Source: Longimicrobiales bacterium
Lineage (GTDB): Bacteria > Gemmatimonadota > Gemmatimonadetes > Longimicrobiales > Gaopeijiaceae
Length of the DNA: 50,083 nt
Reading direction: 5' to 3'
Assembly: GCA_028278645.1 (NCBI GenBank)
Contig: JANQDZ010000072.1
Location: forward strand, 1-50,083
Positions within the stretch are counted from its first letter, which is position 1. Every line of letters begins with the position of its first letter. The notes beneath the pieces are model-generated. The model was not told the DNA's origin. It saw only the letters and a list, made by a program, of their open reading frames with translations, and made no database searches. Position numbers and translations under genes: made by a program. Positions 3,588-27,079 of the stretch are shown here, in pieces.

Positions 3588-3926
3588 GTGGGTTCTCTCG
3601 AACTCCTACGGGGAACCGTAGACGTACTGATCCTGAAGACTCTGAGCTGGGGCCCCCTCCACGGCTACGGCATCTCGCGGGCGATCCGGAACGCCACGGA
3701 GAATGCCCTCACCGTCGAGGAGGGCGCCATGTATCCAGCCCTTCGCAGGTTGGAGAACAAGGGACTTGTGGAATCGAGCTGGGGAAGAACCTCTACGGGT
3801 AGAGAGGCCAAGTTCTATCGACTCACCCGGACCGGGTCCGCGGCCCTCGAAAAGGAAGTCCGTAGTTGGACGAAGTACGTTGCTGCGATGGCGGGCGTGA
3901 TCGAAGCGGAAGGCCCAAAGAAGTGA
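3588..3926 (+). CDS. PadR-family transcriptional regulator
   Basis: A 112-residue PadR winged-helix repressor: LLRGTVDVLILKTLSWGPLHGYGI, then VEEGAMYPALRRLENKGLVESSW (recognition helix), and a wing of GREAKFYRLTRTG. It starts at GTG 3588 with AGGAGGAGG at 3572-3580. The stop overlaps the GTG of the following permease (GTGA), so the two are translationally coupled. PadR proteins of this short type commonly sit directly before ADOP permeases and are thought to repress the operon in response to a small ligand. The ligand here cannot be read from sequence. Confidence 0.9.
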   Translation: MGSLELLRGTVDVLILKTLSWGPLHGYGISRAIRNATENALTVEEGAMYPALRRLENKGLVESSWGRTSTGREAKFYRLTRTGSAALEKEVRSWTKYVAAMAGVIEAEGPKK

Positions 3927-6553
3927 GTACCCTGGACGATCAGGCCCGGGAAGACGTTCGACGGGAGCTTCAGGCGCACCTCCGCCTCAGGGCGGAAGAG
4001 CTGGAAGCCCAAGGATGGTCTCCCGAGGACGCTCGCAGAGAAGCCGTGCGGCTTTTTGGTGACTACCACGCCCTTAGGGAAGCTTGTGAAGAACTGGCCA
4101 CTCACCAGGTTCGGAAACGGGCCCGCCTGGAATCCTGGGCAAGGGTGTTCCAGGATCTGAAGCACTCCCTCCGGATGACGGTTCGGAACCCAGCTTTCAG
4201 CCTGCTTTCCTTCCTCACCCTAGCCCTGGGTATTGGCGCAACGACGGCGATATTCAGCGTGGTCCATGGCATCCTGGTCCGCCCCCTGCCCTTCGAGGAT
4301 CCGCAGGCTCTTGTGCAGGTGTACGAGAAGGGTCGTGAGGGTGGAATCATGAATACCGCTTGGCCGAACCTTCAGGACTGGCGAAGGGAGAGTCGTTCCT
4401 TCGATGGTTTGGCGGGGTACGGCCAACGAACCGTGACCGCAGTCGGGGGCGCCGAACCGGCCCGCGTTGAGGCCGCCGCTGTCTCTGTGGACTTCTGGAA
4501 GGTGTTTCGCATTCGGCCCGAAAGGGGTCGCCTGACAGGTCCTGATGACCACCGAGTCGGTACACACGCCGGGGTGGTGATCTCGGAGAACCTGGCCACC
4601 CGTTTGTTCAACTCCGACGAGGTGGTTGGCCGGACCCTTTCACTCAGCGGCGCTCCAGCCCTAATCCTCGGGGTGGCCCAATCCGGGTTCGATTTCCCAA
4701 TCGGAACAGATCTTTGGTACCCCCTCGAGATGGAAGACCCAAGCACGTCGAGAACGGCCCACAACTGGTCCGTGGTCGGGCGCCTTCGACGGGGCTCCAC
4801 CGTTGAGGGGGCTCGGTCGGAGTTGGACGAGCTTACAATCCGGATGCTGTCCGCCGTTCAGGATGAGGACCCCGAGTACCTTGCGGCCGGCGCCCATCTC
4901 TACACACTCCAGGACAGGATTGTCCAGGAGGTGAAACCACCCCTGGCCTTCTTGATGGCCGCGTCGATCTTGGTACTGGTCCTGGCCTGCACGAACCTAG
5001 CAAGCATGCACTTGGCCAGAGGTACAGCACGAGTGGAAGAGCTTGCCGTTCGGTCCTCTCTGGGAGCCGAGAGGAGTCGGCTCGTGGGCCAGCTGGTCAC
5101 CGAGGCAGCCGTCCTCGCCACCGTCGGAAGTGGTTTGGGAATCCTCTTGGCCGTGGTCCTTCTCAAGGTCATCAAGGCCCTGGGGAGAGACCTTCCCCGC
5201 ATCGACAGCATCGGGGTCACCCCAGGGGTGCTGGCTTTTACCGTGTTTCTGGCTGGAGCCACCGTCGTGGGTTTCGGGCTCATTCCGGCGTTGCGTCTCA
5301 CCGGGACCCACAACGCGGCGGCCCTTCGATCCGGTCGAAGTGGGAGGACGGTTCGGGAAGGCCGGGTCTGGAGTCTCCTCGTGGGTGGCCAGGTTGCCCT
5401 GACCCTCGTTCTTCTTGTCGGTGCGGGACTTCTTACCCGGAGCTTCCGCGCCGTGCTTTCAGAGGACTCAGGCTTCGGTCACGAAGCCGTGCTCGCCTCT
5501 GAACTCTCATTGAATCAGCTTCGGTACCAAGACCCTGCCGCCGCCGCTCGATTCTACTCGGACCTCGTCGGCCAACTCAGCACCGTCCCCGGGGTTCAGG
5601 CAGCCGGTATCATCAGCACACCACCGCTCAATGGGTGGGTCCCCGCCGGTCGAATACAGATCGATGGGAACTCCGAAAAGCATGTCGAAGACGTGGGTTA
5701 TGTCGTCATCAGCCCCGGCGTCTTGGAAGCCCTCGACGTACCTCTTTTCCACGGCCGAGGGTTCGAGCCAACGGATCAGCCCTCGACTCCTCATGTCGTA
5801 TTGGTCAATCAGGCTTTCGTGAATCGCCATTGGCCTGGCCGAGACCCACTTGGCCGAACCGTATCCGGTGGCGGGATGGACAGTTACTGGAATGCGGACC
5901 CACCGGTGTTCGGAACCGTGGTCGGGGTCGTGGGAGACCTCCGCCACGAAGCATTGACCCGACCACCGCGGCCCACCGTTTTCTGGACCGTGTCCCAGCG
6001 ACCGGGGCGTGTCTGGGGAGGAGCACACCTCTTCGTCGAAGCCGGTCACAGCAACTTACCGGGTCTCGCCACCGCCGTCCGATCGGTGGTGACCGCTGCA
6101 GACCCCGACATCCCGTTGGACCTCTTCCTCCTCTCCGACCGTGTCCAGGAGACTCTGGCCAGCCGCCAGTTCCTGCTTTTTCTGGTAGGAGGGTTCGCCG
6201 TCCTCGCCCTCGTTCTCTCAGCCGTTGGGATCTTCGGCGTGGTCTCCTACTCGGCCGCTCGCCGTCAGAGGGAGATCGGAATCCGGATAGCTGTTGGCGC
6301 CAATCCCCGGGGAATACCCGGATTGATTCTGGGAGGGCTCGCCGGAATCGTTGGACTAGGGCTTCTTTGCGGGCTCTTGGGCGCTGCTGCCCTTACCCGG
6401 CTTCTTTCGGGTTCCCTATACGGGGTGGAGCCTCTCGACCTGGCGACATTCGTGGGGATGCCGGCTCTGGTCGGTTTCGTCGCCCTCCTTGCCGCAGCTT
6501 TCCCCGCCATCCGATCTTCTCGCCAGGACCCATCCAGAACCATCCAGGCCTGA
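3923..6553 (+). CDS. ADOP-family MacB-like ABC permease
   Basis: An 876-residue membrane protein of the acidobacterial duplicated orphan permease type. Residues 1-70 form the helical prefix domain (RELQAHLRLRAEEL, GWSPEDARREAVRLFGD). The first membrane helix, with the signature LALGIGATTAIFSVV, lies at about 92-114. It is followed by a MacB periplasmic core domain, an FtsX-type membrane block (about 330-450), a second periplasmic core domain, and a C-terminal FtsX block containing REIGIRIAVGA. The start is GTG 3923, overlapping the padR-like stop. No ATPase gene is adjacent, as expected for an orphan permease. The transported or signalled substrate is unknown; MacB relatives act in efflux or mechanotransmission across the envelope. 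Confidence 0.9.
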   Translation: MSTLDDQAREDVRRELQAHLRLRAEELEAQGWSPEDARREAVRLFGDYHALREACEELATHQVRKRARLESWARVFQDLKHSLRMTVRNPAFSLLSFLTLALGIGATTAIFSVVHGILVRPLPFEDPQALVQVYEKGREGGIMNTAWPNLQDWRRESRSFDGLAGYGQRTVTAVGGAEPARVEAAAVSVDFWKVFRIRPERGRLTGPDDHRVGTHAGVVISENLATRLFNSDEVVGRTLSLSGAPALILGVAQSGFDFPIGTDLWYPLEMEDPSTSRTAHNWSVVGRLRRGSTVEGARSELDELTIRMLSAVQDEDPEYLAAGAHLYTLQDRIVQEVKPPLAFLMAASILVLVLACTNLASMHLARGTARVEELAVRSSLGAERSRLVGQLVTEAAVLATVGSGLGILLAVVLLKVIKALGRDLPRIDSIGVTPGVLAFTVFLAGATVVGFGLIPALRLTGTHNAAALRSGRSGRTVREGRVWSLLVGGQVALTLVLLVGAGLLTRSFRAVLSEDSGFGHEAVLASELSLNQLRYQDPAAAARFYSDLVGQLSTVPGVQAAGIISTPPLNGWVPAGRIQIDGNSEKHVEDVGYVVISPGVLEALDVPLFHGRGFEPTDQPSTPHVVLVNQAFVNRHWPGRDPLGRTVSGGGMDSYWNADPPVFGTVVGVVGDLRHEALTRPPRPTVFWTVSQRPGRVWGGAHLFVEAGHSNLPGLATAVRSVVTAADPDIPLDLFLLSDRVQETLASRQFLLFLVGGFAVLALVLSAVGIFGVVSYSAARRQREIGIRIAVGANPRGIPGLILGGLAGIVGLGLLCGLLGAAALTRLLSGSLYGVEPLDLATFVGMPALVGFVALLAAAFPAIRSSRQDPSRTIQA

Positions 6554-6744: not shown

Positions 6745-7074
6745 ATGCCCAAAGGCAAACACCTCGGTGAGTTGGAGCAGATGGTCCTCTTGGCGATTCT
6801 CCGCCTGGAGGACGAGGCGTACGGCTTGAACGTCATGAGGGAGTTGAAGGAGCGAGCCAAACGGGAGGTGTCACGCGGGGCTCTTTACGCCGTCCTGGAC
6901 CGACTGGAAGGAAAAGGAATCGTCGTTTCCCGGTTCGGTGACCCAACCCCCGGCCGGGGCGGAAAGCCCCGCCGTTACATGTCCGTGACCCCCCTGGGGG
7001 TTGAGGCGCTCCAGAGGGCGCGGATGGCCTGGCACTCACTCTCGGAGGGGCTGGGGGAGATTCTCGGCAGATGA
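6745..7074 (+). CDS. PadR-family transcriptional regulator
   Basis: A 109-residue PadR regulator beginning MPKGKHLGELEQMVLLAIL, the typical opening of the group linked to ADOP permeases. The recognition region is VSRGALYAVLDRLEGKGIV and the wing is GGKPRRYMSVTPLG. ATG 6745 is chosen from family alignment; an in-frame ATG at 6706 is possible and has no better ribosome-binding site. The stop overlaps the following permease start (ATGA at 7071-7074). It is distinct in sequence from the PadR protein 3 kb upstream, so each permease probably has its own repressor rather than a recent duplicate. Confidence 0.9.
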   Translation: MPKGKHLGELEQMVLLAILRLEDEAYGLNVMRELKERAKREVSRGALYAVLDRLEGKGIVVSRFGDPTPGRGGKPRRYMSVTPLGVEALQRARMAWHSLSEGLGEILGR

Positions 7075-9815
7075 ACAGCGGAAAAGAGCACAAGCCCCCG
7101 CGTCTGGCCTCTGCTCTCCTGGCCCGTTGCGTACCACCGGGACCCGGAGGCGAGGCGATTCTGGGGGACCTCCAGGAAGGATTCACAGAGCTGGTGAAGG
7201 AAACCGATGGAGTGGAGGAGAAGGTAAGAGACTCCGGGTCAGACGCCGGTGGGAGAGCCGTTCTCAGAAAAGCCCGCTTCTGGTATTGGGGGCAGGCTCT
7301 TGCCCTTGGTAGCCGCTTCCTCCTTCGCAGGGTCCTACACGTTCGACTATACCGGAGGCTGGCACCGTCATCCCCTCATGATGGCCGATCCCGGATGGGC
7401 TTCATTGGCCTCTCCATTGATGTGAAATTCGGCCTCCGATCCCTCCTACGGGACAGGGGGTTCACGGCCATCGCCATGTTGACCCTGGCCCTGGGGATCG
7501 GGGCCACAACGGCCATCTTCAGTGCCGTCAACGCGGTTCTTCTACGACCGCTTCCCTACCACGAATCCCACCGTCTTGTTTCCATACGAGACATCAAGTC
7601 ACCCCAGTACCTCTTCGGCATACAAGTGGCCATGGGCCATTTTGTGGAGTGGAGGGAGCGGGCTAGGTCCTTTGATCATATGGCCGCGTATGTCTCCCGG
7701 CGGTACACGCTCACGGGGAGGGGTGAACCCAGGCGACTGTCCGCAACTAACGTGTCCGCCGGGCTATTCACCATGCTGGGGATCCAGCCCACGCTGGGCC
7801 GGGACTTCACACCGGCGGAGGATCAGCCCGGCGGAGACGACGTGGTCCTGGTGAGCCACGGTCTCTGGCAGAGACAGCTGGGAGAGGATTCGGATGCCCT
7901 GGGACAGACGCTCATGCTGGACGGCCGACCCCATACCATCGTGGGGGTTCTGCCGCCCGGCGTGGACTTCCCCGAATCCGATGTGGACCTCTGGACACCG
8001 CTTGCCCTGACACCGGAACAACGGCAGGCCCACGGAAACCACCTCCTTTGGGTCGTCGCTCGCCTGAAGCCCGGAGTCACCACTGCACAGGCCCAGACGG
8101 AGATGGACGGGGTCGCCCAACAGCTTGAAGCCGAATTTCCAGGGGTGAACACCGGGTGGGGTGTTCGGATCGAAGGCCTCCTGGAATCCAGGGTGGGCGG
8201 CAGGAAAGTCGGCCTCTGGATGCTGTTCGCAGCGGTGGGATTCGTTCTACTCATCGCCTGTGCCAACGTGGCCAACATGCTCCTCGTCCGAGCCTCGGAC
8301 CGGGGCAGGGAGTTGGCTGTTCGGGCAGCCATGGGTGCCCGACCCATCCAACTCCTTCGTCCAGCTTTTACAGAGAGCGCCCTCCTGGGGATGGGCGGTG
8401 GACTCCTGGGCCTGGCTGTTGCCGGGGCCGGTGTGAAGGCTCTTCCGATCCTCTTCCCTGGGCTGCCCCGCATCCAGGAGGTGGGTCTGGACGGGGCGAC
8501 CTTGGCCGTTGCCCTCTCCAGCGGGGTCCTCGCGACACTTCTTTTTGGCACCATGCCGGCTGCCCAGGCTCTCAGGGCAGATCCCACGGACGGGCTCAAG
8601 GAGGCCACGAGGGGTTCCAGTAGCGGACCAGGGAGACTGAAGCTCAGACGCCTTTTGGTGGTCGCTGAGGTGGCCCTGGCCCTGGTACTCCTCACCGGGT
8701 CCGGCCTCATGGTCCGGAGCCTTCGCATGCTGCAGGAGGTGGATCCCGGCTTCAAGTCCGAGAACGCCTGGGTGACTCAACTGGAACTCCCGGAGGCATC
8801 TTACGCTCCAGGACCCCAGACGGCCGACTTTTTCCGGCACGTCACACAGGGCGTCGCCCAGATCCCCGGCGTCGAAGCGGTGGGTGTGGCATTCACTCTT
8901 CCGTTCATTCGCGACCAGCACCTGGGGTTCGTCATCGAAGGGCGCCCCATGCCCAGACCGGACCAGATCCCCACGGTCCTCTACTATGCCGTGAGCCACG
9001 GGTATTTCAGGGCCATTGGATTACCTCTGATCCGGGGCCGATCCTTCACAGAGGCGGATCGGGAGGATGCACCGGGAGTCGTAATCATCAATCAGACCAT
9101 GGCCCGGCGGTTCTTCCCTGATCAGGATCCCATCGGCCAGAGAATCCATGTATCCAACGGCCCCGGGAACTTCCGTGAGATCATCGGAGTCGTGGGCGAC
9201 GTTCGGCAGAACGGCTTGGACGACGGAGGTCGGCAGCAGGTTTACGAGCCGTTCTCCCAACAGGTGTATCAGGACCTGGATATGTGGCTTGTGCTTCGCT
9301 CCGAGTCTGATCCAATTGCTTTGAGCGCCGCCGTCCGGGAACGGGCCCAGGAACTGGAGGGGGATCTGCCGGTAGCCGATCTCACGTCTCTGTCTGAGAA
9401 GGTCGATGGCTGGGTCTCCATACGACGGGCACCCGGAGATCTCCTTACCTTTTTCGCAGCGGTAGCCCTTTTCCTGGCTGCCCTGGGTATCTACGGGACC
9501 ATGGCCTACTCGGTGGCTCGGCGGACACGGGAGGTGGGCATTCGCATGGCCCTGGGCGCTGATCGCTCCGATGTGGTCAAGCTGGTTTTTCGGGAGGGGA
9601 TGATCCTTACGACGACGGGGGTGGTGGTCGGCCAAGTGATGGCCTTTCCGTTGACGCGACTCATGGGCGGGATGCTCTTCGGAGTCACTCCTGCTGATCC
9701 CGCCACCTTGGTCCTTTCGCCCCTGATTCTCGTCACGGCGGCGGCCTTGGCCATCCTGATTCCCCTCAGAAGAGCGACTCGAGTGGATCCGAATGTGACG
9801 CTGAGATCCGAGTGA
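7071..9815 (+). CDS. ADOP-family MacB-like ABC permease with type-2 prefix domain
   Basis: A 914-residue orphan permease. Its N-terminus (about 12-45: PRLASALLARCVPPGPGGEA, then ILGDLQEGF) is the second type of ADOP prefix domain, different from the one in the neighbouring permease. The first membrane helix carries LALGIGATTAIFSAVNAVLL (about 139-158). Two MacB-type periplasmic domains and two FtsX blocks follow; the last includes TREVGIRMALGA and ends in RVDPNVTLRSE. The start ATG overlaps the PadR stop by four bases. With the 3923 gene it forms two tandem PadR/permease units on the same strand, each with its own promoter. Substrate unknown. Confidence 0.9.
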   Translation: MNSGKEHKPPRLASALLARCVPPGPGGEAILGDLQEGFTELVKETDGVEEKVRDSGSDAGGRAVLRKARFWYWGQALALGSRFLLRRVLHVRLYRRLAPSSPHDGRSRMGFIGLSIDVKFGLRSLLRDRGFTAIAMLTLALGIGATTAIFSAVNAVLLRPLPYHESHRLVSIRDIKSPQYLFGIQVAMGHFVEWRERARSFDHMAAYVSRRYTLTGRGEPRRLSATNVSAGLFTMLGIQPTLGRDFTPAEDQPGGDDVVLVSHGLWQRQLGEDSDALGQTLMLDGRPHTIVGVLPPGVDFPESDVDLWTPLALTPEQRQAHGNHLLWVVARLKPGVTTAQAQTEMDGVAQQLEAEFPGVNTGWGVRIEGLLESRVGGRKVGLWMLFAAVGFVLLIACANVANMLLVRASDRGRELAVRAAMGARPIQLLRPAFTESALLGMGGGLLGLAVAGAGVKALPILFPGLPRIQEVGLDGATLAVALSSGVLATLLFGTMPAAQALRADPTDGLKEATRGSSSGPGRLKLRRLLVVAEVALALVLLTGSGLMVRSLRMLQEVDPGFKSENAWVTQLELPEASYAPGPQTADFFRHVTQGVAQIPGVEAVGVAFTLPFIRDQHLGFVIEGRPMPRPDQIPTVLYYAVSHGYFRAIGLPLIRGRSFTEADREDAPGVVIINQTMARRFFPDQDPIGQRIHVSNGPGNFREIIGVVGDVRQNGLDDGGRQQVYEPFSQQVYQDLDMWLVLRSESDPIALSAAVRERAQELEGDLPVADLTSLSEKVDGWVSIRRAPGDLLTFFAAVALFLAALGIYGTMAYSVARRTREVGIRMALGADRSDVVKLVFREGMILTTTGVVVGQVMAFPLTRLMGGMLFGVTPADPATLVLSPLILVTAAALAILIPLRRATRVDPNVTLRSE

Positions 9816-10257: not shown

Positions 10258-10746
10258 TCATCTCAGGTCATCGTCCAGCTCCCGGAGCCTCCGGAGAATG
10301 CCAAGGGGGCTCTCCCCGGCGGCCAACTCCCCGATTTTGGCCATCCGCACCTCGTCAGCCGCGAACTTCTTTTTCAGCCTGGCCTCGTACGCTTCCCTCA
10401 GGACCTTGATGAGCATATCCAGCTCATAGGGCTTCGGGAGGTAGCTGAAAGCTCCGAGCTTTGTCAGCTCCACTGCGCTCTCCAGGGATCCGTGACCTGT
10501 CAGGATGATCGCCTCGAGAAACCGATGCTCTCCCTTGAGAACTTTGAGGACCTCTCCCCCATCCATCCCAGGCATCTTCAGGTCCAGGAGTGCGATGTCG
10601 AACTTCTCCTTCCGGCTCAGCTCGATAGCATCCGGGCCGTTGGAGGCGGTCCGGACGTCGAAGTCCCGCTTCCTGAGGCGGGAAGCAATCGCGTTCAGGA
10701 AACGCGTTTCGTCGTCAACGATGAGAAGCTTTATGACGTGGTCCAC
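10258..10746 (-). CDS. Stand-alone receiver-domain response regulator without DNA-binding output
   Basis: A 162-residue CheY-like receiver. The acidic pair is Asp11-Asp12, the phospho-acceptor Asp55 is in LLDLKMPG, the switch Thr83 is in ILTGHGS and Lys105 is in LPKPYE. After residue 125 there is only a charged helical tail of about 35 residues (FAADEVRMAKIGELAAGE), with no winged helix, AAA or enzymatic domain. The start is GTG 10746 with AGGAGG five bases before it. It is the last gene of a four-gene minus-strand operon after the transporter fusion (35-bp gap). It could serve as a phosphate sink or phosphorelay intermediate for the kinase at 13432-15138. It could also act through protein contacts. 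Confidence 0.9.
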   Translation of the reverse strand: MDHVIKLLIVDDETRFLNAIASRLRKRDFDVRTASNGPDAIELSRKEKFDIALLDLKMPGMDGGEVLKVLKGEHRFLEAIILTGHGSLESAVELTKLGAFSYLPKPYELDMLIKVLREAYEARLKKKFAADEVRMAKIGELAAGESPLGILRRLRELDDDLR

Positions 10747-10781
10747 TGTAGCCTCCTAACGAGGATTCGGGCTCCTGTTGT

Positions 10782-12845
10782 TCAAACCGCCGGGAACCCC
10801 AGCCATAGCCAATACCCCAGAATCGCCCAGACCCAGAGGACGGCGAAGCAGATGAGGAGTACGAAGAAACCGTGCTTAAAAAAGTCCGCCAGAGTCACCA
10901 GCTGTTCGCCGGTGCTCGGGTCCTTCGCCATGGCGTACGCCAGGGCATTGGATGGGGTTCCAATGATCAACATATGAGCGAAGGACGATGCAAACGCGGT
11001 GGCCAGGCCAACCATCCATGGGTGAACTCCGGCTACCGTGGCCATTGGGACCGTTACCGGTCCGATGGCGGCCACGGTGGCGCCGTCACTCATGAAGTTC
11101 GTGGCCAGGCCGGTGAAGAGGCTGGAAGCGACGGCCAGACCCGAACCGGTGGCCATGAAGTCCGGGAGGATGGCGACAAAAGCATCCGCTAGGAAGAGGG
11201 CCACGCCGGTGGAAGCCAGCCCAGCACCTATGGCGGTGGCTCCGGCGTAGAGTAGCACGACTTCCCAGTGAATGGACTGCATGTCCCTCCACGGCAGAAT
11301 CCTGAAAACATTCAGTAGTACCAAGCCCAATATGACGGGCCCACCCATTCCCAGGGTGCGGCTGGAGGTGATCCACAGAACGACCACCAGAACCAGAACT
11401 CCCGCGGTGATGTACTCAGCTCGAGTCATGGGTCCGATCTTCTCGGCGGCCCGCCGCACCTCCGCGGCAACGTTCACGGAGGGGACCTTCACCTTACGCT
11501 TCAGAGCGAACAGGAAGTAGAGGCCTACACAGAACGACAGGACCGGAACGAGGGGCAGGCCGTACATGACCCACTGCCCGAAGGTGGGTGCGATGCCATA
11601 GTCAGCCAGGATCCCCACCATGATTGCGTTCCGTCCCCCGGCGGCGGGGGAGCCGGGGCCGCCAGAGTTGGCCGCAAAGCAGAGGGAAAGAGCAAGGAGG
11701 ACCATGAAATTCCGGTCCTTCTTGAGGCCGCTGGACCGCATGCCCGTGGCGTAGACCATGACAAACAGGGGCATGGTAAAGGCCACGAGGGCGTGCTCCG
11801 AAAGAAAAGAGCAGGCCACGGACAGGAGAGGCAGGAAGACTAGAAGAAAGAGGGTCAAGTTTCTGGCAGGAGCCAGGAGAAGGAGACCTATCCTTCGGTC
11901 CAGCCCGGTCTTGGTGATGGCCTTGGAAAGGGCCAGGACCCCGAAGATGAAGAAGACCGCGTCTTTGGCGAAGGCCTGGGCCACGCCGTCCGGTTTGAAC
12001 ACATCGAAGAAATACAGGGAAGCTGCGATGAAGAGCGTCGTCACCGCCACCGGCACCGCTCCTGTAGCCCAGAAAAGGGCGGAAACCATGAGCGTGGCAA
12101 GCATTATCATAGCTCGCCGGGCCACTTGCTCGGCCTCCAACGGGGCCTTAGCCCGGGGCCCGGGGCCCTGAACGATCTCCTCTCCCAGCTTATACTTTTC
12201 GGAATAGTACTCTGAGATGGTCTCCCCCGGCTCCATATCCCTGTAAGACGCGAATCCCATGATAGGATCGGGACCCTCCGTCACAGTTTCCGGGGCGCTC
12301 TTCGGGGTGCCCACCAGCTCCACCAGGCGGGTGGGTGGCGGCAAGAGCGCCAGGATGGCGAAGAGAGCTGCTCCAAGAAGGATGAAGAGGGGCCTGGAGT
12401 TGTGGGTTCCAAGGAGCCAATGTTTGGCAGAACGCCGGTCCGGGGGGTGGTGCACGATCTCATGCCGGGCCTTGGCAAAAACCACCTCCTCCTTGGCCGA
12501 CTCCAGGACTTCCTCCAACTCTTCGACCGAACAGGGTTTTTGGAGGAATTTGAATGCCTCGAGACGGCCGGCCTCTTTGGCCGAGTCCAGGCTACCATGC
12601 CCGGTCAGCATGATGGCCTGGACGGCCGGGTTGAAAGCCCTCATCTCCCGGAGAGTCTGGATCCCGTCCAAACCGGGCATCTTCAGGTCTAGGACCGCAA
12701 TATCGATGTCAGGATCTAGCCTCGCCTCCTTGATGGCGTCCTGACCATTGTCGGCTTCAACGACTTCGTACCCCCGCGTGCGAAGGCGCCCGGCCAGGTT
12801 CGTACGGAAACGATCCTCATCGTCTACGAGAAGGATCTTGGACAT
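10782..12845 (-). CDS. Receiver domain fused to SLC13/DASS-type membrane transporter
   Basis: A 687-residue protein with a complete CheY-like receiver at 1-118 (Asp9-Asp10, phospho-acceptor Asp53 in VLDLKMPG, Thr81, Lys103). A charged linker and one membrane helix (about 150-170) follow, and then a DASS/SLC13-like transporter from about 243 to the end. The transporter shows paired re-entrant regions: SFLSEHALVAFTMP (345-358) with GGPGSPAAGGRN (394-405), and NFMSDGATVAAIGPV (582-596) with IIGTPSNALAY (626-636). Both canonical SNT ion-binding triplets are changed, to SEH and SDG. ATG 12845 has AGGAG upstream. It sits six bases after a CBS-domain gene that follows the sensor kinase, so phosphorylation of the fused receiver by that kinase is the simplest hypothesis. 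Family members import di- and tricarboxylates or sulfate; the substrate here is unknown. Confidence 0.85.
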   Translation of the reverse strand: MSKILLVDDEDRFRTNLAGRLRTRGYEVVEADNGQDAIKEARLDPDIDIAVLDLKMPGLDGIQTLREMRAFNPAVQAIMLTGHGSLDSAKEAGRLEAFKFLQKPCSVEELEEVLESAKEEVVFAKARHEIVHHPPDRRSAKHWLLGTHNSRPLFILLGAALFAILALLPPPTRLVELVGTPKSAPETVTEGPDPIMGFASYRDMEPGETISEYYSEKYKLGEEIVQGPGPRAKAPLEAEQVARRAMIMLATLMVSALFWATGAVPVAVTTLFIAASLYFFDVFKPDGVAQAFAKDAVFFIFGVLALSKAITKTGLDRRIGLLLLAPARNLTLFLLVFLPLLSVACSFLSEHALVAFTMPLFVMVYATGMRSSGLKKDRNFMVLLALSLCFAANSGGPGSPAAGGRNAIMVGILADYGIAPTFGQWVMYGLPLVPVLSFCVGLYFLFALKRKVKVPSVNVAAEVRRAAEKIGPMTRAEYITAGVLVLVVVLWITSSRTLGMGGPVILGLVLLNVFRILPWRDMQSIHWEVVLLYAGATAIGAGLASTGVALFLADAFVAILPDFMATGSGLAVASSLFTGLATNFMSDGATVAAIGPVTVPMATVAGVHPWMVGLATAFASSFAHMLIIGTPSNALAYAMAKDPSTGEQLVTLADFFKHGFFVLLICFAVLWVWAILGYWLWLGFPAV

Positions 12846-12851
12846 GGGCTC

Positions 12852-13412
12852 CTAACTCCTTTCGTCGGAGCAGTCTCCCTGGGAAACCTGTCGGGAGAGT
12901 TCGTCGAAGAAATCACTGAGCCTCAGGATCCCTACGGTCCTGCCCTGGCGGGTAACCAGGAGGGACGCCGTTTGATGTTTCAGAAAGTGAGCCGTGGCGT
13001 CGAGAAGGGGCGCGTCCTCATCGATGCTAATGGTGATGGGACTCAGAACCTCCCGCACCGAGACGTGTTTGAATCGTTCGCAAGTATCCACCAGGTCGGC
13101 GGTTAGCAGATCCAGCGTCTGCAAGGAGCTTTCGAGGAGATCCGCAGCCACACCCGCCCGGTGCATCAGTCCACGGGTGGCGAGGGCTTTCCGTTCCGGG
13201 ATCAACGCCCGCAGGAAAGCGAAATGATGGAGCTTTCCGATGATCTCTCCCGCTCGGTCCCGTACCAGGACCGCCCGGTGAGGCTGACGACCGGGGGTGA
13301 GCCGCTCTTGGGAGGTCTGGAGAGCCTTGAGGGCATCGAGGACGGTGGCATTCTCGTCCACCATAGCATACTCCGACAAGGCCAGGGTCAGGTCTCTGAC
13401 TCGATCTGCCAT
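12852..13412 (-). CDS. CBS-domain-pair protein
   Basis: A 186-residue soluble protein with two CBS repeats: the first from about 14 (YAMVDENATVLDALKALQTS, later RAVLVRDRAGEIIGKL) and the second from about 118 (VREVLSPITISIDEDAPLLD, later ASLLVTRQGRTVGILRLSDF). Between them is an unusual helical insert (ALIPERKALATRGLM and so on). CBS pairs bind adenosine nucleotides and often gate transporters or enzymes. ATG 13412 has GAGGAG upstream; an earlier start at 13493 would overlap the kinase gene. It lies between the sensor kinase and the receiver-transporter fusion, so it may couple energy status to the same transporter. That role is inferred from gene order. Confidence 0.8.
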   Translation of the reverse strand: MADRVRDLTLALSEYAMVDENATVLDALKALQTSQERLTPGRQPHRAVLVRDRAGEIIGKLHHFAFLRALIPERKALATRGLMHRAGVAADLLESSLQTLDLLTADLVDTCERFKHVSVREVLSPITISIDEDAPLLDATAHFLKHQTASLLVTRQGRTVGILRLSDFFDELSRQVSQGDCSDERS

Positions 13413-13431
13413 GATCACTCCTCTTTCCGGG

Positions 13432-15138
13432 TCACCCGATCCCCAGGGGAAGCTCCAGGGTGAATGTGCTCCCCTGGCCGGGAGCGCTCTCAACCTCGAT
13501 GGACCCCCCGAAGCTCTGGATGATGTTGTAGCTAACGCTCAACCCCAGGCCTGTGCCCTTTCCCGGTTCCTTGGTCGTAAAGAAGGGCATGAACGCCCGG
13601 TCCATCAGGGCCGGGGTCATCCCCAGTCCCGTGTCCTGCACTGCGATAACCGCCCGGTCGTCTTTCCGCGTCGTGGTGACGGTGAGGGTTCCCCCATTCG
13701 GCATGGCATCCAGGGCGTTCTTCACAAGGTTCACGAACACCTGCACAAGCTGGTTCCGATCGGTGAGGATTTCCGGGATGGACTGATCATATCGGCGAAC
13801 CACCTCCACGTTTGAGATGGCGAGTTCGTTTCCGAGCATTACGTCGAGGACCTCGTCCAGAACGCCCCGAATCTTGTGAGGCTCGACCCTCACATCGGTT
13901 TTCCGGACGAAGGTAAGGAGTTTCCGGGTTATGTCCCGGCACCGGAACACAGCTTCGTGAATCGCATCGAGGTGGTCCGAAAGAACCAAAGGCTCGTCGT
14001 CTTCCTGCGCCAGCTCCGGATCGAGGGAGTCCCGGACCACTCCCACCTCCTCGGCTATGATCGCGAGAGGGTTGTTGATCTCATGAGCGATACCGGCGGC
14101 GAGCTCCCCGACGGAGGCGAGGCGTGAGGCATGGACCAACTGCCCGGAGAGTTCCGCCTCATAGCGCTCGCTCTCGAGCTTTGACCCCACCACCTGCCGG
14201 GCACGAATTAAAATGACCAGTCCTGCCAGGAGGAAGGTGGCGAAGGTAGCCAGGAGAGGGAGATTCCCGAAGACGGAAGCTCCCCAACCCGAAGGCTCAT
14301 CCTGGGCACCGGTGACAACCAGTGCCCACGGTGTCTCTTTGAGCCAGGCATAGGCATACTGGATTTTCCCATCGTCCCCGTGCTCCACCACGAACCCCCG
14401 GTCCGGGTCCCTGGGCGGAACAAACGGCGAAGCCCCCAGGACCTCCCCGACCCTTGGCGTAGTGACCTGGAGGATCCCTTCGTCATTCACCACTGCAGCG
14501 TGGACCTCGTTGGCTCCCTCGAGGGTGGTGAGGTACTCGGAGAGCCGCTCAGGAGAGAGGGCGGATCTCAGGACCGTGAGGGACGCTTCCTCCCCCCTTC
14601 GAACGGCAATGGTGAAGTGCGGTCGGTCTCGAAACCCGCGATAGATCTCGGTGATCAGTGTTTCAGGCGAACCCGACAGAAGGTCCTCGAACCAGCCCTG
14701 AGCCCTGTAGTTCACCGGGCCGGCGTAGGCAACAGGTCCTACGTAGGACAGAAGGTCCCCACCTCGGTTCACAACGCCCAGGTCTACAAAGGCGTCGCTG
14801 GTCTGCTGGAGGGAGGCAAGGAAGCTCTCCAGGGTCGTAGAATCCCGTCCGAAGCGGAACCTGGGGTCGTCGATGACGTTCCCGAGGTTCACCAGCCGTT
14901 CCCTTAGGAACAGGTCGAAGGTTGTGGACTGGTGTTCCGCGATGGCTTCCAGGTGGGCCCGGGTGCCGTCACGGACGAGATACCAGTATTGCAGGTGAAA
15001 GAAGCCCGCCAGCAGGAGGAGAGGGGCGAAATAGAGGACAACCAGCCGTCCGAATGTCGTCAAGAACAGCTCCCGCTCGTACCCGTCCCGAGCCGGTTTG
15101 TCCTGAGCCTTCGATGCCCCACCCGGTGGGCCAGACAT
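13432..15138 (-). CDS. Membrane sensor histidine kinase with periplasmic Cache-like domain
   Basis: A 568-residue kinase. There is a membrane helix at about 29-53, an extracytoplasmic sensor at 55-285 with Cache-like features (WFEDLLSGSPETLITEIYRG, PHFTIAVRR, and later YAYAWLKETPWALVV), and a second helix at 290-312. The H-box is ELAAGIAHEINNPLAII with His352, the N-box is QLVQVFVNLVKNALDAM, and the G-boxes are DTGLGM and GKGTGLGLS. No receiver or HAMP domain is evident. It heads an operon with a CBS protein, a receiver-transporter fusion and a lone receiver. As no DNA-binding regulator is encoded, its natural partners are probably those two receivers. The sensor type suggests a small organic ligand, perhaps the transported substrate. 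Confidence 0.9.
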   Translation of the reverse strand: MSGPPGGASKAQDKPARDGYERELFLTTFGRLVVLYFAPLLLLAGFFHLQYWYLVRDGTRAHLEAIAEHQSTTFDLFLRERLVNLGNVIDDPRFRFGRDSTTLESFLASLQQTSDAFVDLGVVNRGGDLLSYVGPVAYAGPVNYRAQGWFEDLLSGSPETLITEIYRGFRDRPHFTIAVRRGEEASLTVLRSALSPERLSEYLTTLEGANEVHAAVVNDEGILQVTTPRVGEVLGASPFVPPRDPDRGFVVEHGDDGKIQYAYAWLKETPWALVVTGAQDEPSGWGASVFGNLPLLATFATFLLAGLVILIRARQVVGSKLESERYEAELSGQLVHASRLASVGELAAGIAHEINNPLAIIAEEVGVVRDSLDPELAQEDDEPLVLSDHLDAIHEAVFRCRDITRKLLTFVRKTDVRVEPHKIRGVLDEVLDVMLGNELAISNVEVVRRYDQSIPEILTDRNQLVQVFVNLVKNALDAMPNGGTLTVTTTRKDDRAVIAVQDTGLGMTPALMDRAFMPFFTTKEPGKGTGLGLSVSYNIIQSFGGSIEVESAPGQGSTFTLELPLGIG

Positions 15139-15321: not shown

Positions 15322-16056
15322 TCATCCGGGCCGGGTGGTCAGGGTCTCCTCCAAAGGCTCAAGCAGATCCTGGGCCGAGATGATGCCGACCAGGTCCCCG
15401 TGTTTGTTCAGGACCGGAAGAGCCCCAAACCGGTGTTCGCGAAATACCTTGACCGCTTCCAGGATGTGGTCTGAAGCGCGGACGGTCATGGGGTTCCGCG
15501 TCATAACGTGCTCCACTCGATGATCGTCATTGATCTGGTAGCAACTCGTCCAGTCATCGAGATCTTCCGTCCATCGGGGTCGCCGGAGGTCCCGGTCACT
15601 GATGATTCCTACGAGGCTTTCCCCATCGACCACGGGTATGTGCCTCACCCTATTGGACTGCATGAGAAGGAAGGCTTGCTTCACCGACATGTCCTCGGTG
15701 GTGGAAATGAGCTTTTGGGTCATGTATCTGCTTACGTTCATCAGCTTGGACCTCTTTGGTGCGAGGTTGACCTGGGACCACAAACCTGAGCTTTGGCCCT
15801 CCTTACTGGGAGCAGGGGTTTTTGGGCTTCGGCTCAACTGGCGGCGAATCTGTTGCCAGATGGAAGGCTCCGAAAGAGGGCGGTGGTCAAGGAGATCTCT
15901 AAGAGCGCCACCAAGGGCCTTGTAGGTATCAATCTCCTCCCTGAGCTCGTCGCAAGAGGAGATCCCTTGTATCACGCGCTCTCGTTCCCAGACGGGGAGC
16001 TCATCATCCAAGAGCCTGGAAAGATCTTCGCGAGACACCGGAGGGCCTGAGAGCAT
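15322..16056 (-). CDS. Anti-sigma-like N-terminus fused to a CBS pair
   Basis: A 244-residue protein. Residues 1-65 (SREDLSRLLDDELPVWERER, then a helix ending GGALRDLL) resemble the N-terminal domain of zinc-binding anti-sigma factors, but only one Cys is present and the His-x3-Cys-x2-Cys metal site is missing. A linker (about 66-104) leads into two CBS repeats from Met106: VSRYMTQKLISTTEDMSVKQ with HIPVVDGESLVGIISDRDL, then VEHVMTRNPMTVRASDHI with ALPVLNKHGDLVGIISAQDL. ATG 16056 is preferred because residues upstream of it are not family-like. It precedes the kinase operon on the same strand by 183 bp. CBS pairs sense adenosine nucleotides; the N-terminus may bind a partner protein. Both roles are inferences. 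Confidence 0.75.
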   Translation of the reverse strand: MLSGPPVSREDLSRLLDDELPVWERERVIQGISSCDELREEIDTYKALGGALRDLLDHRPLSEPSIWQQIRRQLSRSPKTPAPSKEGQSSGLWSQVNLAPKRSKLMNVSRYMTQKLISTTEDMSVKQAFLLMQSNRVRHIPVVDGESLVGIISDRDLRRPRWTEDLDDWTSCYQINDDHRVEHVMTRNPMTVRASDHILEAVKVFREHRFGALPVLNKHGDLVGIISAQDLLEPLEETLTTRPG

Positions 16057-16181
16057 TTCCTTCCTTCTTCGCCATATCCTCAAGTATCGAGCGCGGTTGG
16101 GGAAGCTCGGCCCTGAAAATCTGCACCAACGGCCAGAACCGCTTTCCAGAGCAGGCGGTTCGATCGGCACTCTCCTCAACA

Positions 16182-16199
16182 TACGAAGAACAATTCGTA
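16182..16199. promoter_or_regulatory. Inverted repeat upstream of the anti-sigma-like/CBS gene
   Basis: TACGAA-GAACAA-TTCGTA is a perfect 6-6-6 dyad in an AT-rich patch about 130 bp before the ATG at 16056. A TTGACG-like hexamer (plus-strand CGTCAA, 16210-16215) lies just upstream on the minus strand, so the dyad would sit inside or next to the promoter. No good -10 was identified. Confidence 0.35.
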
Positions 16200-16246
16200 A
16201 CTTATTTATCGTCAATTTCCTCTCGTCTTTCTATCAGCACCCGAAC

Positions 16247-16275
16247 AAAAAACGGCCTCATTCCGTACGCCCAGC
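16247..16275 (-). terminator. Possible intrinsic terminator of the CNNM gene
   Basis: On the minus strand the end of the coding region reads into ACGGAATGAGGCCGTTTTTTG. A short ACGG/CCGT stem is followed by six T residues directly at the stop codon. The stem is only four base pairs, so efficiency is doubtful. Confidence 0.35.
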
Positions 16276-17562
16276 CGCCGATTCCGAACCACTGGGTCCA
16301 TCGTGCGAAAAGAGAACGGATTCGACTCGCAATCCCCTAAGGCGACCTACCCGAAAGGTGCCCCCTTCCACGTGGACTTCGTCCCCGGATCGGGGGACCC
16401 GCCCCAGCCGTCCGAAAACGAAACCCCCGACGGTGTCGGCTTCCTCATCGGAAAGGTCCAATGAGAGAGCGTGGTTCACATCCCGGACCAGGACATCTCC
16501 GCCGACCAGGACTTCTCCGGTCTCGAGTATCTGGAAATCCTCCAACTCCGGAGGCTCGTGCTCGTCCCGGATATCGCCGACGATCTCCTCGATGAGATCC
16601 TCGAGAGTCACCAGACCCGCTGTACCTCCGAACTGGTCAAGAACGATGACCATTTTCGACCGTGCTTCCCGCATCTCCGAGATGAGGTTCTCCACTGGCT
16701 TTCCGGCGGGGGCAAAAGCCATAGGCCTAACGGCCGACCGGATGTGGGTGTTGCCGGAACGGGCTGCCGCCCATAGATCCCTGGCGGCCAACAACCCGAC
16801 GATATGATCGAGGTCCCGGTCAAAGACGGGAAGCCGGAGATTGCCCTGGTCCAGCATGAGATCCATGGCTTGCTCGACCGAAGCGTCAATGGGAATGCCC
16901 ACAATGTCCATCCGGGGAGTCATGACATCCCCCACGGCCACCCCTTTCAAACCCAGGACATTCCTCACCATATTCCACTCGCCCTCTCCGAGGATACCTT
17001 CCCGACGTCCAAGCTCCGCCAGGACCTCGATCTCAGCACGACTCACCGCCACCCCTTTCCCTCCCCGGGGTTGGATGAGGCGGTTGAACCAGGAAAGGGG
17101 CACCAGGACGGGTTTTAGCACGACTATCAAGAAGGCCAGGACATAGGCCGAGGGAACGGAGAGCGTTCTCCAATGGGATGCCCCCAGGGTTTTTGGAATG
17201 ATCTCCGAGAAGACGAGGACCACGAGGGTCAAGACGGCCGAGAAAAGGGCGATCCATCGATCTCCGAAGACCTCCAGGGCGATCGACCCTCCCATGGCAG
17301 CACCCACGGTGTGGGCGATCGTGTTCAGGGTCAGGATCGCGCCGATTGGCTCATCGATGCGTCGAAGCATCCTGTCGAACCAGATTCCCGCCCACTTTCC
17401 TCTTTCCTTCAAGACTCCGACCCAGGAGTGCGTGACGGAGAGGAACACCGCTTCCAACACAGAGCAAAGGAAAGACAAAGACAAGGAGATCCCGAGAACC
17501 CAGAAAAGTCGGTTCACGCACGGCCTCGACAGTCGCTCGATATGGGCACCAGGGGAGAGCAT
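16258..17562 (-). CDS. CNNM/CorC-family transporter-associated protein (DUF21, CBS pair, CorC_HlyC)
   Basis: A 434-residue membrane protein. It has a DUF21/CNNM membrane domain at about 17-190 (LNTIAHTVGAAMGG, FSEIIPKTLGA), a CBS pair at about 210-330 (VMTPRMDIVGIPIDASVEQA, then DQFGGTAGLVTLEDLIEEIV), and a C-terminal CorC_HlyC domain with a conserved EEADTVGGFVFGRLG segment. Relatives such as CorC, MpfA and CNNM proteins export Mg2+ or modulate Mg2+/Co2+ transport, with ATP binding at the CBS pair. It is the first of two such proteins in the window; the second is at 19470-20765. The ribosome-binding site of the ATG at 17562 is weak, so the exact start could be a few residues inside. Confidence 0.9.
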   Translation of the reverse strand: MLSPGAHIERLSRPCVNRLFWVLGISLSLSFLCSVLEAVFLSVTHSWVGVLKERGKWAGIWFDRMLRRIDEPIGAILTLNTIAHTVGAAMGGSIALEVFGDRWIALFSAVLTLVVLVFSEIIPKTLGASHWRTLSVPSAYVLAFLIVVLKPVLVPLSWFNRLIQPRGGKGVAVSRAEIEVLAELGRREGILGEGEWNMVRNVLGLKGVAVGDVMTPRMDIVGIPIDASVEQAMDLMLDQGNLRLPVFDRDLDHIVGLLAARDLWAAARSGNTHIRSAVRPMAFAPAGKPVENLISEMREARSKMVIVLDQFGGTAGLVTLEDLIEEIVGDIRDEHEPPELEDFQILETGEVLVGGDVLVRDVNHALSLDLSDEEADTVGGFVFGRLGRVPRSGDEVHVEGGTFRVGRLRGLRVESVLFSHDGPSGSESAAGRTE

Positions 17563-17770
17563 CCTAGCTTCGGAAGGGTTTTATGTCGGATCCATAAGAC
17601 GTTCGGAACCGCGCCAAACGACGAGAACGAGGAGATTCGAGCCAACTGGATTGCTTTCCCGCTTGACCCGACAAAGAAGAAGACGACTTCCCCTCTTCGA
17701 CGCCCTCGCCGGGGAGGTCCGCTACGTCTTCCTCCGGCTCCGGCCCTGAGGTTACTTTGGAAAAGGGTGA

Positions 17771-18178
17771 TCACCGTGGACGGCGAAGGATCTTCTGGAC
17801 ACGGTCTACGACGGACCAAAAACCGAAGGGTTTTTCGACAAGTTCGGTAAAACCTTCTCGGGGCCCTTCCCGTTCTTTGTCCGTGCTCGCCTGAGTTGTA
17901 AGGCCGATTGCCGAGACCTCGAGACCCTCCTTTTCGAGAGCCCCCAAAAGCTCCGATCCGCCCATACCCGGGAGGACCGTGTCGGTGATCAAGACGGCGG
18001 GCTCCTCACCATTCAGTTGGTTCAAGAGTTGCTCAGCGGTCGAGAAGGCGACCACTCTTACCCCAAGCGTGCCGAGAACCCTATAGAGGCCATGCCGGGT
18101 TTTTTCATCCTCGGAGACCACGCAAACTGCCCCTTGAAGGTTTGAGAGAGTCCTCCTTTTTCGCTTCTTGATCTTCAT
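17771..18178 (-). CDS. Orphan receiver-domain protein
   Basis: A 135-residue receiver-like protein with a basic N-terminus (KIKKRKRRT). The beta1 acidic residues are reduced to Ser-Glu-Asp-Glu (VVSEDE), the phospho-acceptor is Asp66 in LITDTVLPGMGG, a Thr pair follows in IGLTTQAS, and Lys116 is in VEKPFGF. There is no output domain. ATG 18178 is tentative: no clear ribosome-binding site is visible, and the frame extends to 18304, where it would overlap the next gene. It is probably phosphorylated by a kinase encoded elsewhere, or acts as an atypical receiver. It lies between a CNNM gene and a small hypothetical gene on the same strand. Confidence 0.7.
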   Translation of the reverse strand: MKIKKRKRRTLSNLQGAVCVVSEDEKTRHGLYRVLGTLGVRVVAFSTAEQLLNQLNGEEPAVLITDTVLPGMGGSELLGALEKEGLEVSAIGLTTQASTDKEREGPREGFTELVEKPFGFWSVVDRVQKILRRPR

Positions 18179-18272
18179 TTGAGCATCATCCGATCCCGCT
18201 GGAAGAGACCTCAGCGAACCGTGAACGGCCATGCGCACCAACGGTGGCGCCGCGTGCACGTTCCCTGATTCC

Positions 18273-18590
18273 CTAACGGGGTGTGTGCCGAAGCCAATCC
18301 TCATATCGATGCCTGAGTCTCACCCTCAAGCCGGCGAGACCCAATTCCTCTGAATGGTCGAGCCAGCCCAAGCTTGTACGGAAGAACTCTTCTGAAAGCC
18401 AGGTAGCCGCACTCTTTGACCACCGTTCATCCTCCACGAGGGATTCTGTTGTGGAGATGCGGGCTGACTGGAATGCTGAGACAAATGCCCTGAACTCGTC
18501 AGTATCCCGCTCAACAGGGACTTCCGGCACGATCTGCCCGTCTACGTCCCGTTCGACGGCCTCGAAATAGATCACCCACGCAGCCTTCAT
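18273..18590 (-). CDS. Hypothetical protein, 105 residues
   Basis: ATG 18590 has an excellent GGAGG six bases upstream. The product (KAAWVIYFEAVERDVDGQIV near the N-terminus, then a helical, acidic segment around AFVSAFQSARISTTESLVED and a basic C-terminus) has no membrane segment and no motif that I recognise. It is the first gene of a possible two-gene unit with the receiver at 17771-18178; the two are 94 bp apart. Function unknown. Confidence 0.55.
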   Translation of the reverse strand: MKAAWVIYFEAVERDVDGQIVPEVPVERDTDEFRAFVSAFQSARISTTESLVEDERWSKSAATWLSEEFFRTSLGWLDHSEELGLAGLRVRLRHRYEDWLRHTPR

Positions 18591-19087
18591 ACCTTTCCTC
18601 CAGAAGGGCCGGGGCCCGAATCCTTTCCAATGGAGGCCTGAGTGGGATTCCACCATCCGAACTCCGACCTCTCTCTCACACAGGCGGGTGACGTTCGATA
18701 GGCCGCTCGAAAGCCCCAATTCCTAGCCTCTAGCCGTCGAGGTCTTTTCTCACTGGGGACTAGATCATCAGTGCCTAGCTCTCAGGTTCCCTAGGTTCTC
18801 ATGAACCGGGAACTCACCCGCCTCTTGACAATTGAGTATACGTATCATATTTCATGAAATGTAAAACATGAATTAGATACCGGCAATAAAGGCAACCGTG
18901 AAGCCCGTCTGTGGTGCCATCTGCCTCTGATCTCGGGATTCCTCAATACCTACCTAGTTTCAAACAAAGAGCCGGGAGGCCTGGCGCCGACAGCGTCCGG
19001 TTGCACTTATGCGGTGGGTTGCGGTATAGATTCAGGTGTGAGCTTCCGAGCCATCTCCCCTCGCCTTTTCCCAAACCCCATTTTGCC
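18591..19087. other. 497-bp divergent intergenic region with an AT-rich promoter patch
   Basis: Between a leftward hypothetical gene and a rightward regulator. At 18820-18890 the composition turns sharply AT-rich. TTGACA (18825-18830) is consensus -35; possible -10 hexamers are CATATT or TATTTC at 18847-18854. The same patch contains the palindromes ATACGTAT (about 18838-18845) and TTTCATGAAA (18850-18859). The transcript towards the regulator would have a leader of about 225 bases in which no known riboswitch pattern was recognised. Confidence 0.45.
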
Positions 19088-19405
19088 ATGGATGGAAACA
19101 CGAACGACCCGAAAGAGAAGGGCGGATCATGGACTTTTCTGACGAACCATTCCCACGTCCTGATCTGTATCCATGAGGACAGTTCCATTCGTACGCGTGA
19201 CATCGCAGCGCGCGTCGGGATCACCGAAAGGGCAGTCCACCGGATAATCTCCGAACTCTCTACGGCTGGATATCTCTCCCGGACACGGGAGGGGCGCCGA
19301 AACCGCTACACGGTGTGTGCGGAAAAACCCCTTCGGCATCCGGTAGAGGCTCACTGCCTCATTTCCAGCCTACTCAAAACCGTAGAGCAGTCAAACGCAG
19401 CTTAG
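19088..19405 (+). CDS. Winged-helix transcriptional regulator (MarR/HTH_24-like)
   Basis: A 105-residue protein. SIRTRDIAARVGITERAVHR is a clear helix-turn-helix, followed by IISELSTAGYLSRTREGRRN (recognition helix and wing). The preceding TNHSHVLICIHED gives the usual first helix. The C-terminal 35 residues (LRHPVEAHCLISSLLKTVEQ) may form a dimerisation helix. ATG 19088 gives a compact protein; the frame extends to a GTG at 18911, but the added residues are proline-rich and not family-like. It faces away from its neighbours and is probably monocistronic, with its promoter in the AT-rich patch upstream. The regulated target is unknown. Confidence 0.75.
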   Translation: MDGNTNDPKEKGGSWTFLTNHSHVLICIHEDSSIRTRDIAARVGITERAVHRIISELSTAGYLSRTREGRRNRYTVCAEKPLRHPVEAHCLISSLLKTVEQSNAA

Positions 19406-19469
19406 GGGACCCTGCACGAGTCCCTTGGCTGTTCTACGCCGTGCTGGGTCCGGGATGCCGGGGCCGCGC

Positions 19470-26795: not shown

Positions 26796-26824
26796 GGGTG
26801 GGCGCGCTTCCTGGAGCCGGTTCG

Positions 26825-27079
26825 TCAAAGGCCCAGGTCCCGCCGTATTTCGTCCCAGGGAACGGTGCCGGTTTCAGCAATCTCCTGAAGAGCAGTCTCG
26901 AAATCCCTGGCCTCCAGTAGGGTGCGGAGCCGGTCGAGGAGGGTGGCGTCCTCGACGGGGACGATTGCCACCAACTCCTTCCCATGCCGGGTCACAACGA
27001 AACGTTCTCCGCCGTAGGCGGCGCGATTCAGGAGCTCGGCCATGTTCTTCCGGGCCTCGGCCGTGGTTACGTTCTTCAT
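26825..27079 (-). CDS. Phd/YefM-type antitoxin
   Basis: An 84-residue protein beginning MKNVTTAEARKNMAELLNRA, followed by GGERFVVTRHGKELVAIVPV. This is the Phd/YefM DNA-binding fold; the acidic helical C-terminus (TLLEARDFETALQEIAETGT) would wrap a toxin. ATG 27079 has GAGGA upstream. Its stop lies 29 bases before the ATG of the RelE-like frame; a TTG at 26828 in that frame would even overlap the stop. Phd-type antitoxins normally repress their own promoter by binding a palindrome, and one is present at 27202-27211. By location it would regulate the permease as well. Confidence 0.88.
   Translation of the reverse strand: MKNVTTAEARKNMAELLNRAAYGGERFVVTRHGKELVAIVPVEDATLLDRLRTLLEARDFETALQEIAETGTVPWDEIRRDLGL

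Follow-up and report, generated by a model that had tools for sequence, protein, structure and literature searches.

A receiver-SLC13 carrier fusion beside a Cache-type histidine kinase: a candidate post-translational switch on sulfate uptake

The operon and its products

The stretch of DNA analysed here (the window) comprises 50,083 nucleotides of contig JANQDZ010000072.1 from a Longimicrobiales bacterium of the phylum Gemmatimonadota. Four genes lie in a row on its minus strand, in the order dCache histidine kinase, CBS-domain protein, receiver-SLC13 fusion and lone receiver, with intergenic gaps of 19, 6 and 35 bp. The initial annotation had described a one-strand operon of four genes, none with a DNA-binding domain, and both observations stand: the open reading frames were recovered at the same positions, and no DNA-binding family in Pfam or NCBIfam was matched by any of the four proteins. 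A scan for sigma-70-like promoters inside the operon, which has little power, found none. Upstream on the same strand (window 15322-20765) are genes for a two-CBS protein, two CNNM/CorC-type proteins and a receiver-only protein (17771-18304), and the 50 kb also hold four MacB/FtsX-type permease genes (3866-6553, 7071-9815, 24063-26828 and 47551-50022).

The first gene (13432..15138, minus strand) encodes a sensor histidine kinase of 568 amino acids, recognized by Pfam and an AF2 model, in which a dCache sensor (about residues 59-276) is flanked by transmembrane segments and followed by HisKA, with H352 in the motif HEINNP, and HATPase_c. HisKA and HATPase_c are both above their Pfam cut-offs, and the H-box and ATP-lid motifs are invariant in 53 kinase orthologues. 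The Pfam match to dCache_1 reaches 44.7 bits against a cut-off of 45 (E 1.6e-11), and the AF2 model (pLDDT 83.8) has a pattern of strands and helices over residues 60-277 that is compatible with a dCache domain. Within the sensor half, R81, R170, H174, R191 and Y166 are invariant among 37 orthologues. A Foldseek search listed kinase domains, and no solved structure was found that gives the ligand class of this sensor. The invariant R81, R170, H174 and R191 point to an anion such as sulfate as a candidate ligand, at about even odds.

The second gene (12852..13412, minus strand) starts with an ATG preceded by the Shine-Dalgarno-like sequence AGAGGAG and encodes a CBS-domain protein of 186 amino acids that is specific to this operon family, its orthologues (62-64% identical) being found only in the four Gemmatimonadota genomes that carry the operon. 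The initial annotation spoke of a CBS pair; Pfam confirms one CBS match, and the second repeat is implied only by the length and the alignment. At the other end of the operon, the lone receiver (10258..10746, minus strand) has 162 amino acids, including a tail of 43, and matches Response_reg only in Pfam, with the phospho-acceptor position D55 at codon 10582-10584.

Between them lies the fusion gene (10782..12845, minus strand), whose product of 687 amino acids was identified by Pfam, AF2 and 75 homologous loci, with Response_reg (residues 4-114) and Na_sulph_symp (241-683) in a single frame. The receiver domain occupies residues 1-118 (12492..12845, minus strand), with the phospho-acceptor D53 at codon 12687-12689, and the AF2 model superposes it on CheY-like domains (Z 22.2 to 3crn). 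Both receivers of the operon exceed the Response_reg cut-off, and the key Asp, Thr and Lys residues, as had been noticed in the initial annotation, are all present in each: D8, D9, D53, T81 and K103 in the fused receiver and D11, D12, D55, T83 and K105 in the lone one.

The transporter part (residues 139-687; 10785..12431, minus strand), assigned by structure match, is well above the Pfam cut-off for Na_sulph_symp (128 against 27 bits). The AF2 model of the fusion has a pLDDT of 88.7 and a pTM of 0.80, and its transporter part superposes on NaCT (8uvb, Z 41.2) and VcINDY (6okz, Z 34.3; VIA-align). The two SNT motifs of characterised SLC13 carriers such as VcINDY bind Na+ and substrate. In the fusion, the first is replaced by S349-E350-H351 (11793..11801, minus strand; aligned with SNT 150-152 of VcINDY, 4f35), with S kept in 68/68 homologues, E in 67/68 and H in 66/68, and the second by S586-D587-G588 (11082..11090, minus strand; aligned with SNT 377-379), which is invariant in 68/68. 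R405, at the position of VcINDY P202 in the alignment to 4f35, is also invariant. The carrier thus combines the SLC13 fold with a distinct predicted ion and substrate site that is conserved, and Na+-sulfate symport should therefore not be assumed. The match to the NCBIfam DASS model (TIGR00785) falls short of its cut-off (178.6 against 198.6 bits), and this, with the replacement of both SNT motifs, means that the sequence does not establish sulfate transport.

Spread of the fusion and its kinase partner

A single scan of genome contigs for the fusion recovered 75 loci, the window being counted separately (76 in total). By record title these loci span at least eight phyla, namely Gemmatimonadota, Acidobacteriota, Zixibacteria/GN15, Planctomycetota, Calditrichota, Desulfobacterota, Krumholzibacteriota and Kapabacteria. 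The receiver is in frame with the SLC13 part in 74 of the 75 scanned loci and in the window, the one exception starting at a contig edge, and Pfam matched Response_reg and Na_sulph_symp independently in 64/64 non-redundant full-length fusions. Full-length copies that are 74% and 69% identical to the window's protein occur in two other Gemmatimonadota, a relative from the same family and one from the same class (genomes G021 and G218, loci L065 and L068). An assembly error, which the initial annotation had named as the weak point of its own proposal, is ruled out by the 74 scanned loci with the same fusion, and the homologous loci in other genomes likewise rule out a one-off of the window's genome.

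In a phylogenetic tree, all of the sampled fusions form one clade (support 86/78), and the sister of this clade consists of unfused carriers from three Desulfobacterota genomes; a single fusion event therefore explains the data. In these three genomes the unfused carrier adjoins a dCache kinase and a stand-alone receiver. The probable sister carrier of Desulfobacterium autotrophicum is presumably HRM2_38230, matched by position, which is unfused and lies beside a dCache kinase. TOL2_19410 of D. toluolica may be one of the fusions, an assignment in which only the position and the length of 691 amino acids agree. PMC5840216 places DASS proteins of 474-691 amino acids in its group Cii.

The question of whether proteins with this architecture adjoin a kinase, raised by the initial annotation, can be answered from the 55 loci with at least 2.6 kb of upstream sequence. 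Fifty of them have a neighbouring histidine kinase: less than 1 kb upstream on the same strand in 47, about 1.2 kb upstream behind two CBS genes in two, and just downstream in one. A dCache domain was detected in nearly all kinases of the 47 loci. As a control, 35 other SLC13 loci of Gemmatimonadota were surveyed, and only three have a receiver or kinase within about 1.5 kb, two of these being the same kind of module; the control rules out a chance neighbourhood of kinase, receiver and SLC13 genes. At L115 and L124 the fused receiver is intact and no adjacent kinase was detected. Some loci (L099, L100, L105, L117, L135, L137 and L138) have a kinase with an extra N-terminal receiver (REC-dCache-kinase, 681-697 amino acids), so that, unusually, a cytoplasmic receiver comes before the sensor.

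The receivers themselves are strongly conserved. All key residues of the fused receiver are intact in 65/68 homologues, and the lone receiver, which follows within about 300 bp of the fusion in 54/65 loci, keeps its DD pair, D55, T83 and K105 in 59/59 orthologues. The three degenerate fused receivers, with DPASK at L084 and DQDTK at L086 and L116, come from loci with neither a kinase nor a lone receiver in the available flank (only 237 bp downstream at L084). There are no degenerate receivers among the 50 kinase-bearing loci (Fisher P = 3.8e-4), but because L086 and L116 are sisters in the tree, receiver decay without a kinase represents two independent events. These three proteins, which have lost acidic-pocket or phospho-acceptor residues, are natural kinase-independent versions of the fusion.

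Co-variation analysis reveals a related pattern. In partial Mantel tests that take the transporter into account, the kinase correlates with the fused receiver (0.47) and with the lone receiver (0.32), neither value being reached in 999 permutations, and the coefficient between the two receivers is -0.08. The kinase thus tracks both receivers and the receivers do not track each other, the pattern that would be expected if one kinase serves two. Given the adjacency and this co-variation, phosphorylation of both receivers by the kinase is very likely. A role of the lone receiver as a phosphate drain is possible; its tail (window 10258-10380), in which S146, I150, L151 and D158 are conserved in 47-52 of 59 orthologues, suggests that it may have a binding partner and do more than drain phosphate. 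The tail has an S-P-L-x-I-L-R-x-L-R-E-L-D-D pattern, common to several phyla, that could be a docking helix.

Sister modules provide another view of the same components. In some of them it is the CBS protein, not the carrier, that bears the receiver, as in contig C342 of genome G021 (L027), and nine such REC-CBS proteins occur in the scanned loci; in others, the receiver stands alone beside SLC13 and dCache kinase genes. By a Rosetta-stone argument, the existence of both REC-CBS and REC-carrier fusions implies that these three components work jointly. The REC-CBS modules (L027:4094-9676, L105, L107, L119, L122, L125, L133 and L137) also encode a dCache kinase, additional receivers and an unfused SLC13 carrier of 615-670 amino acids in which SDH and ADG replace the SNT motifs. 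The window's genome has a second, unfused module (G000:C27; L028:5157-12560), with genes in the order REC-REC, beta-carbonic-anhydrase-like, small HK-like, REC, dCache kinase, REC, REC, CBS and SLC13.

Sulfate respiration and the proposed switch

Among 395 Gemmatimonadota genomes searched, dsrA is present in only six and the operon's CBS protein in exactly four, all four being among the six with dsrA (hypergeometric P = 1.5e-8). In the fourth of these genomes, G330, the contig breaks off within the fused receiver, and the kinase and CBS genes lie upstream in the same order. Outside the phylum, dsrA is above its cut-off in 40 of the 50 fusion-bearing genomes and not in the other 10, many of these genomes being incomplete MAGs. 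The window's genome has dsrA and dsrB above the NCBI cut-offs, together with DsrM, K, J, O and P (DsrMKJOP-DsrAB), and it also encodes ATP sulfurylase. Directly after dsrB is a gene for 82 amino acids (L170:221-469) that is 76% identical in two other Gemmatimonadota; it is DsrD-like by position and size, with no Pfam or NCBIfam name, and makes a reductive rather than an oxidative Dsr pathway likely in this genome. The tracking of dsrA by the operon is newly reported here, and the link to sulfate respiration was, along with the replaced SNT motifs and the relatives already described in Desulfobacteraceae, one of three points missed by the initial annotation.

The model that best explains these observations begins with a dCache domain that would sense an extracellular anion, most likely sulfate. 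The kinase would then autophosphorylate and pass phosphate to two receivers without DNA-binding domains, one free and the other joined by a short linker to the cytoplasmic N-terminus of the SLC13-fold carrier. Phosphorylation of D53 would alter transport activity, the CBS protein would bring a second, intracellular input (probably adenylate) to the same carrier, and the carrier would serve dissimilatory sulfate reduction. On comparative evidence, we put the probability at roughly 0.6 that the operon encodes such a post-translational two-component switch, in which phosphorylation of the carrier's built-in receiver gates sulfate uptake. The initial annotation had already proposed that the kinase acts on the transporter's own receiver with no DNA output; comparison across phyla favours the direction of that idea, and its core gains support from the conservation of the fusion, the adjacency of the kinase, the intact phospho-acceptors, the co-variation, and the decay of receivers that lack a kinase. 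As for the individual steps, that the carrier moves sulfate is probable in view of the dsrA association, and that receiver phosphorylation changes transport is reasonably likely.

Three other explanations need to be weighed against gating of a sulfate carrier. The regulation of transport could be as proposed and the substrate something else, such as another sulfur oxyanion, a C4-dicarboxylate or bicarbonate. The loss of the SNT motifs would fit with such a substrate, as would a fold closest to that of citrate and dicarboxylate carriers and the presence of a beta-carbonic-anhydrase-like gene in the second module of the window's genome, but the dsrA association is very strong and crosses phyla. 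Bicarbonate, suggested by that gene in G000:C27, was dropped as the main reading because the fusion operon tracks dsrA. Furthermore, HRM2_38230, which we assume from its position to be the D. autotrophicum sister carrier, appears to be induced at low sulfate. The expression data come from PMC5840216, one passage of which describes high expression of the DASS genes HRM2_38230 and HRM2_38300 at sulfate concentrations below 100 uM, whereas a second passage gives the opposite assignment for HRM2_38300. On balance, we consider a non-sulfate substrate fairly unlikely.

The same transcripts, from two DASS genes in such a region that rise below 100 uM sulfate in that passage of PMC5840216, can also be taken to favour transcriptional control, in which the Cache kinase would signal external sulfate to a DNA-binding regulator of transporter expression and the operon's receivers would be side branches. 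A path from sensor histidine kinase to 'WalR-type' response regulator to promoter has been proposed for related DASS clusters (PMC11887813), and NtrC-like regulators do occur in seven of our loci, suggesting that transcriptional control coexists in some clusters. However, the receiver proteins of the window's operon have no room for a DNA-binding domain, and 113 of the 122 receiver-only proteins in the 76 loci are receiver-sized, with at most 70 residues after the receiver (the other nine being the seven NtrC-like and two LuxR-like proteins). Five of the seven NtrC-like regulators each adjoin their own histidine kinase, in which no Cache domain was detected, and the receiver fused to the carrier would be left unexplained, making this an improbable account of the operon. 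The remaining alternative inverts the flow of information: the state of the carrier would set the phosphatase or acceptor behaviour of its receiver, a transceptor or phosphate sink that tunes kinase output to the lone receiver. With its SNT motifs replaced, the carrier could have become a sensor; CbrA and similar transporter-kinase fusions are known as transceptors (PMC13022988), and the conserved tail of the lone receiver could mark the true output. Nonetheless, the ion and substrate-site positions have not decayed but are polar and almost invariant, some loci keep the fusion and kinase without a lone receiver, and no downstream target of the lone receiver is evident, so that we regard this arrangement, too, as distinctly unlikely.

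Relation to known systems

Two-component systems are mostly read as switches of gene expression, and hardly any bacterial transporter is known to be phosphorylated directly. The phospho-gating reading suggests that sulfate uptake is instead controlled directly at the transporter. If this is true, a receiver-carrier fusion found in at least eight phyla would represent a new output class, and would allow phospho-gating of a secondary carrier to be tested cleanly. The broader proposition, that kinase phosphorylation of a built-in receiver gates a widespread class of carriers and gives sulfate-respiring bacteria direct control over sulfate entry, seems to us evenly balanced between true and false. 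Sulfate reduction begins with the uptake of sulfate, a step that influences the overall rate (PMC5840216), and control of uptake thus bears on the marine sulfur and carbon cycles. In uncultured phyla, the operon could also serve as a marker for genes of sulfate reduction.

Such gene clusters are partly known. A 30.5-kb cluster of Desulfosarcina variabilis, shared by 26 sulfate reducers (D. variabilis and 25 others), combines genes for DASS sulfate transporters and CBS proteins with those for Cache kinases and response regulators; sulfate has been proposed as its signal and promoter-binding regulators as its output (PMC11887813, Sci Adv 2025). The resemblance to the window's operon lies in the combination of Cache sensor kinase, response regulator, CBS and DASS genes in one cluster. 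The response regulators there are WalR-type by description, whereas the receivers in the window and nearly all of those in related loci have no output domain; in addition, one receiver is here part of the carrier, and the system reaches phyla other than Desulfobacterota. A search of the main text of that paper found no mention of receiver, fused or fusion, and our findings suggest a re-reading of its transcriptional model for Desulfobacteraceae. Searches of a mainly open-access literature found no receiver fused to a transporter. The initial annotation's remark that such a fusion is rarely or never characterised agrees with this result for the fusion itself, with the addition that related Desulfobacteraceae clusters have been described; what appears to be new is the receiver within the carrier, together with the post-translational reading.

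Other systems share single elements of the arrangement. VcINDY, NaCT and NaS1 (SLC13, DASS) have the same fold and the Pfam domain Na_sulph_symp, but the fusion differs in its N-terminal receiver, in SEH and SDG for the SNT motifs and in R405 for VcINDY P202. In LacS, under PTS phosphorylation, a domain on the carrier is directly phosphorylated, although that domain is a PTS EIIA-like one; according to a 2023 review, LacS was the only transporter in bacteria regulated by being phosphorylated itself (PMC10710835), and KdpD-KdpFABC joined it in 2024 (PMC11018627). KdpD, likewise a sensor kinase protein, controls its transporter after translation, but it inhibits KdpFABC via serine phosphorylation by a separate serine kinase domain and not by His-Asp transfer to a transporter-borne receiver. 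EpsW of Myxococcus is a single-domain response regulator that acts directly on a membrane protein, EpsZ (PMC12802240); in that case an unfused regulator acts on a glycosyl transferase, and the input is a chemosensory system. Finally, CbrA and other SLC5-STAC-kinase transceptors (PMC13022988) combine a transporter and a two-component module in one polypeptide, but there the kinase is the fused partner, the carrier is SLC5 and the output is transcriptional via CbrB, whereas here the carrier is SLC13 and the kinase is a separate protein.
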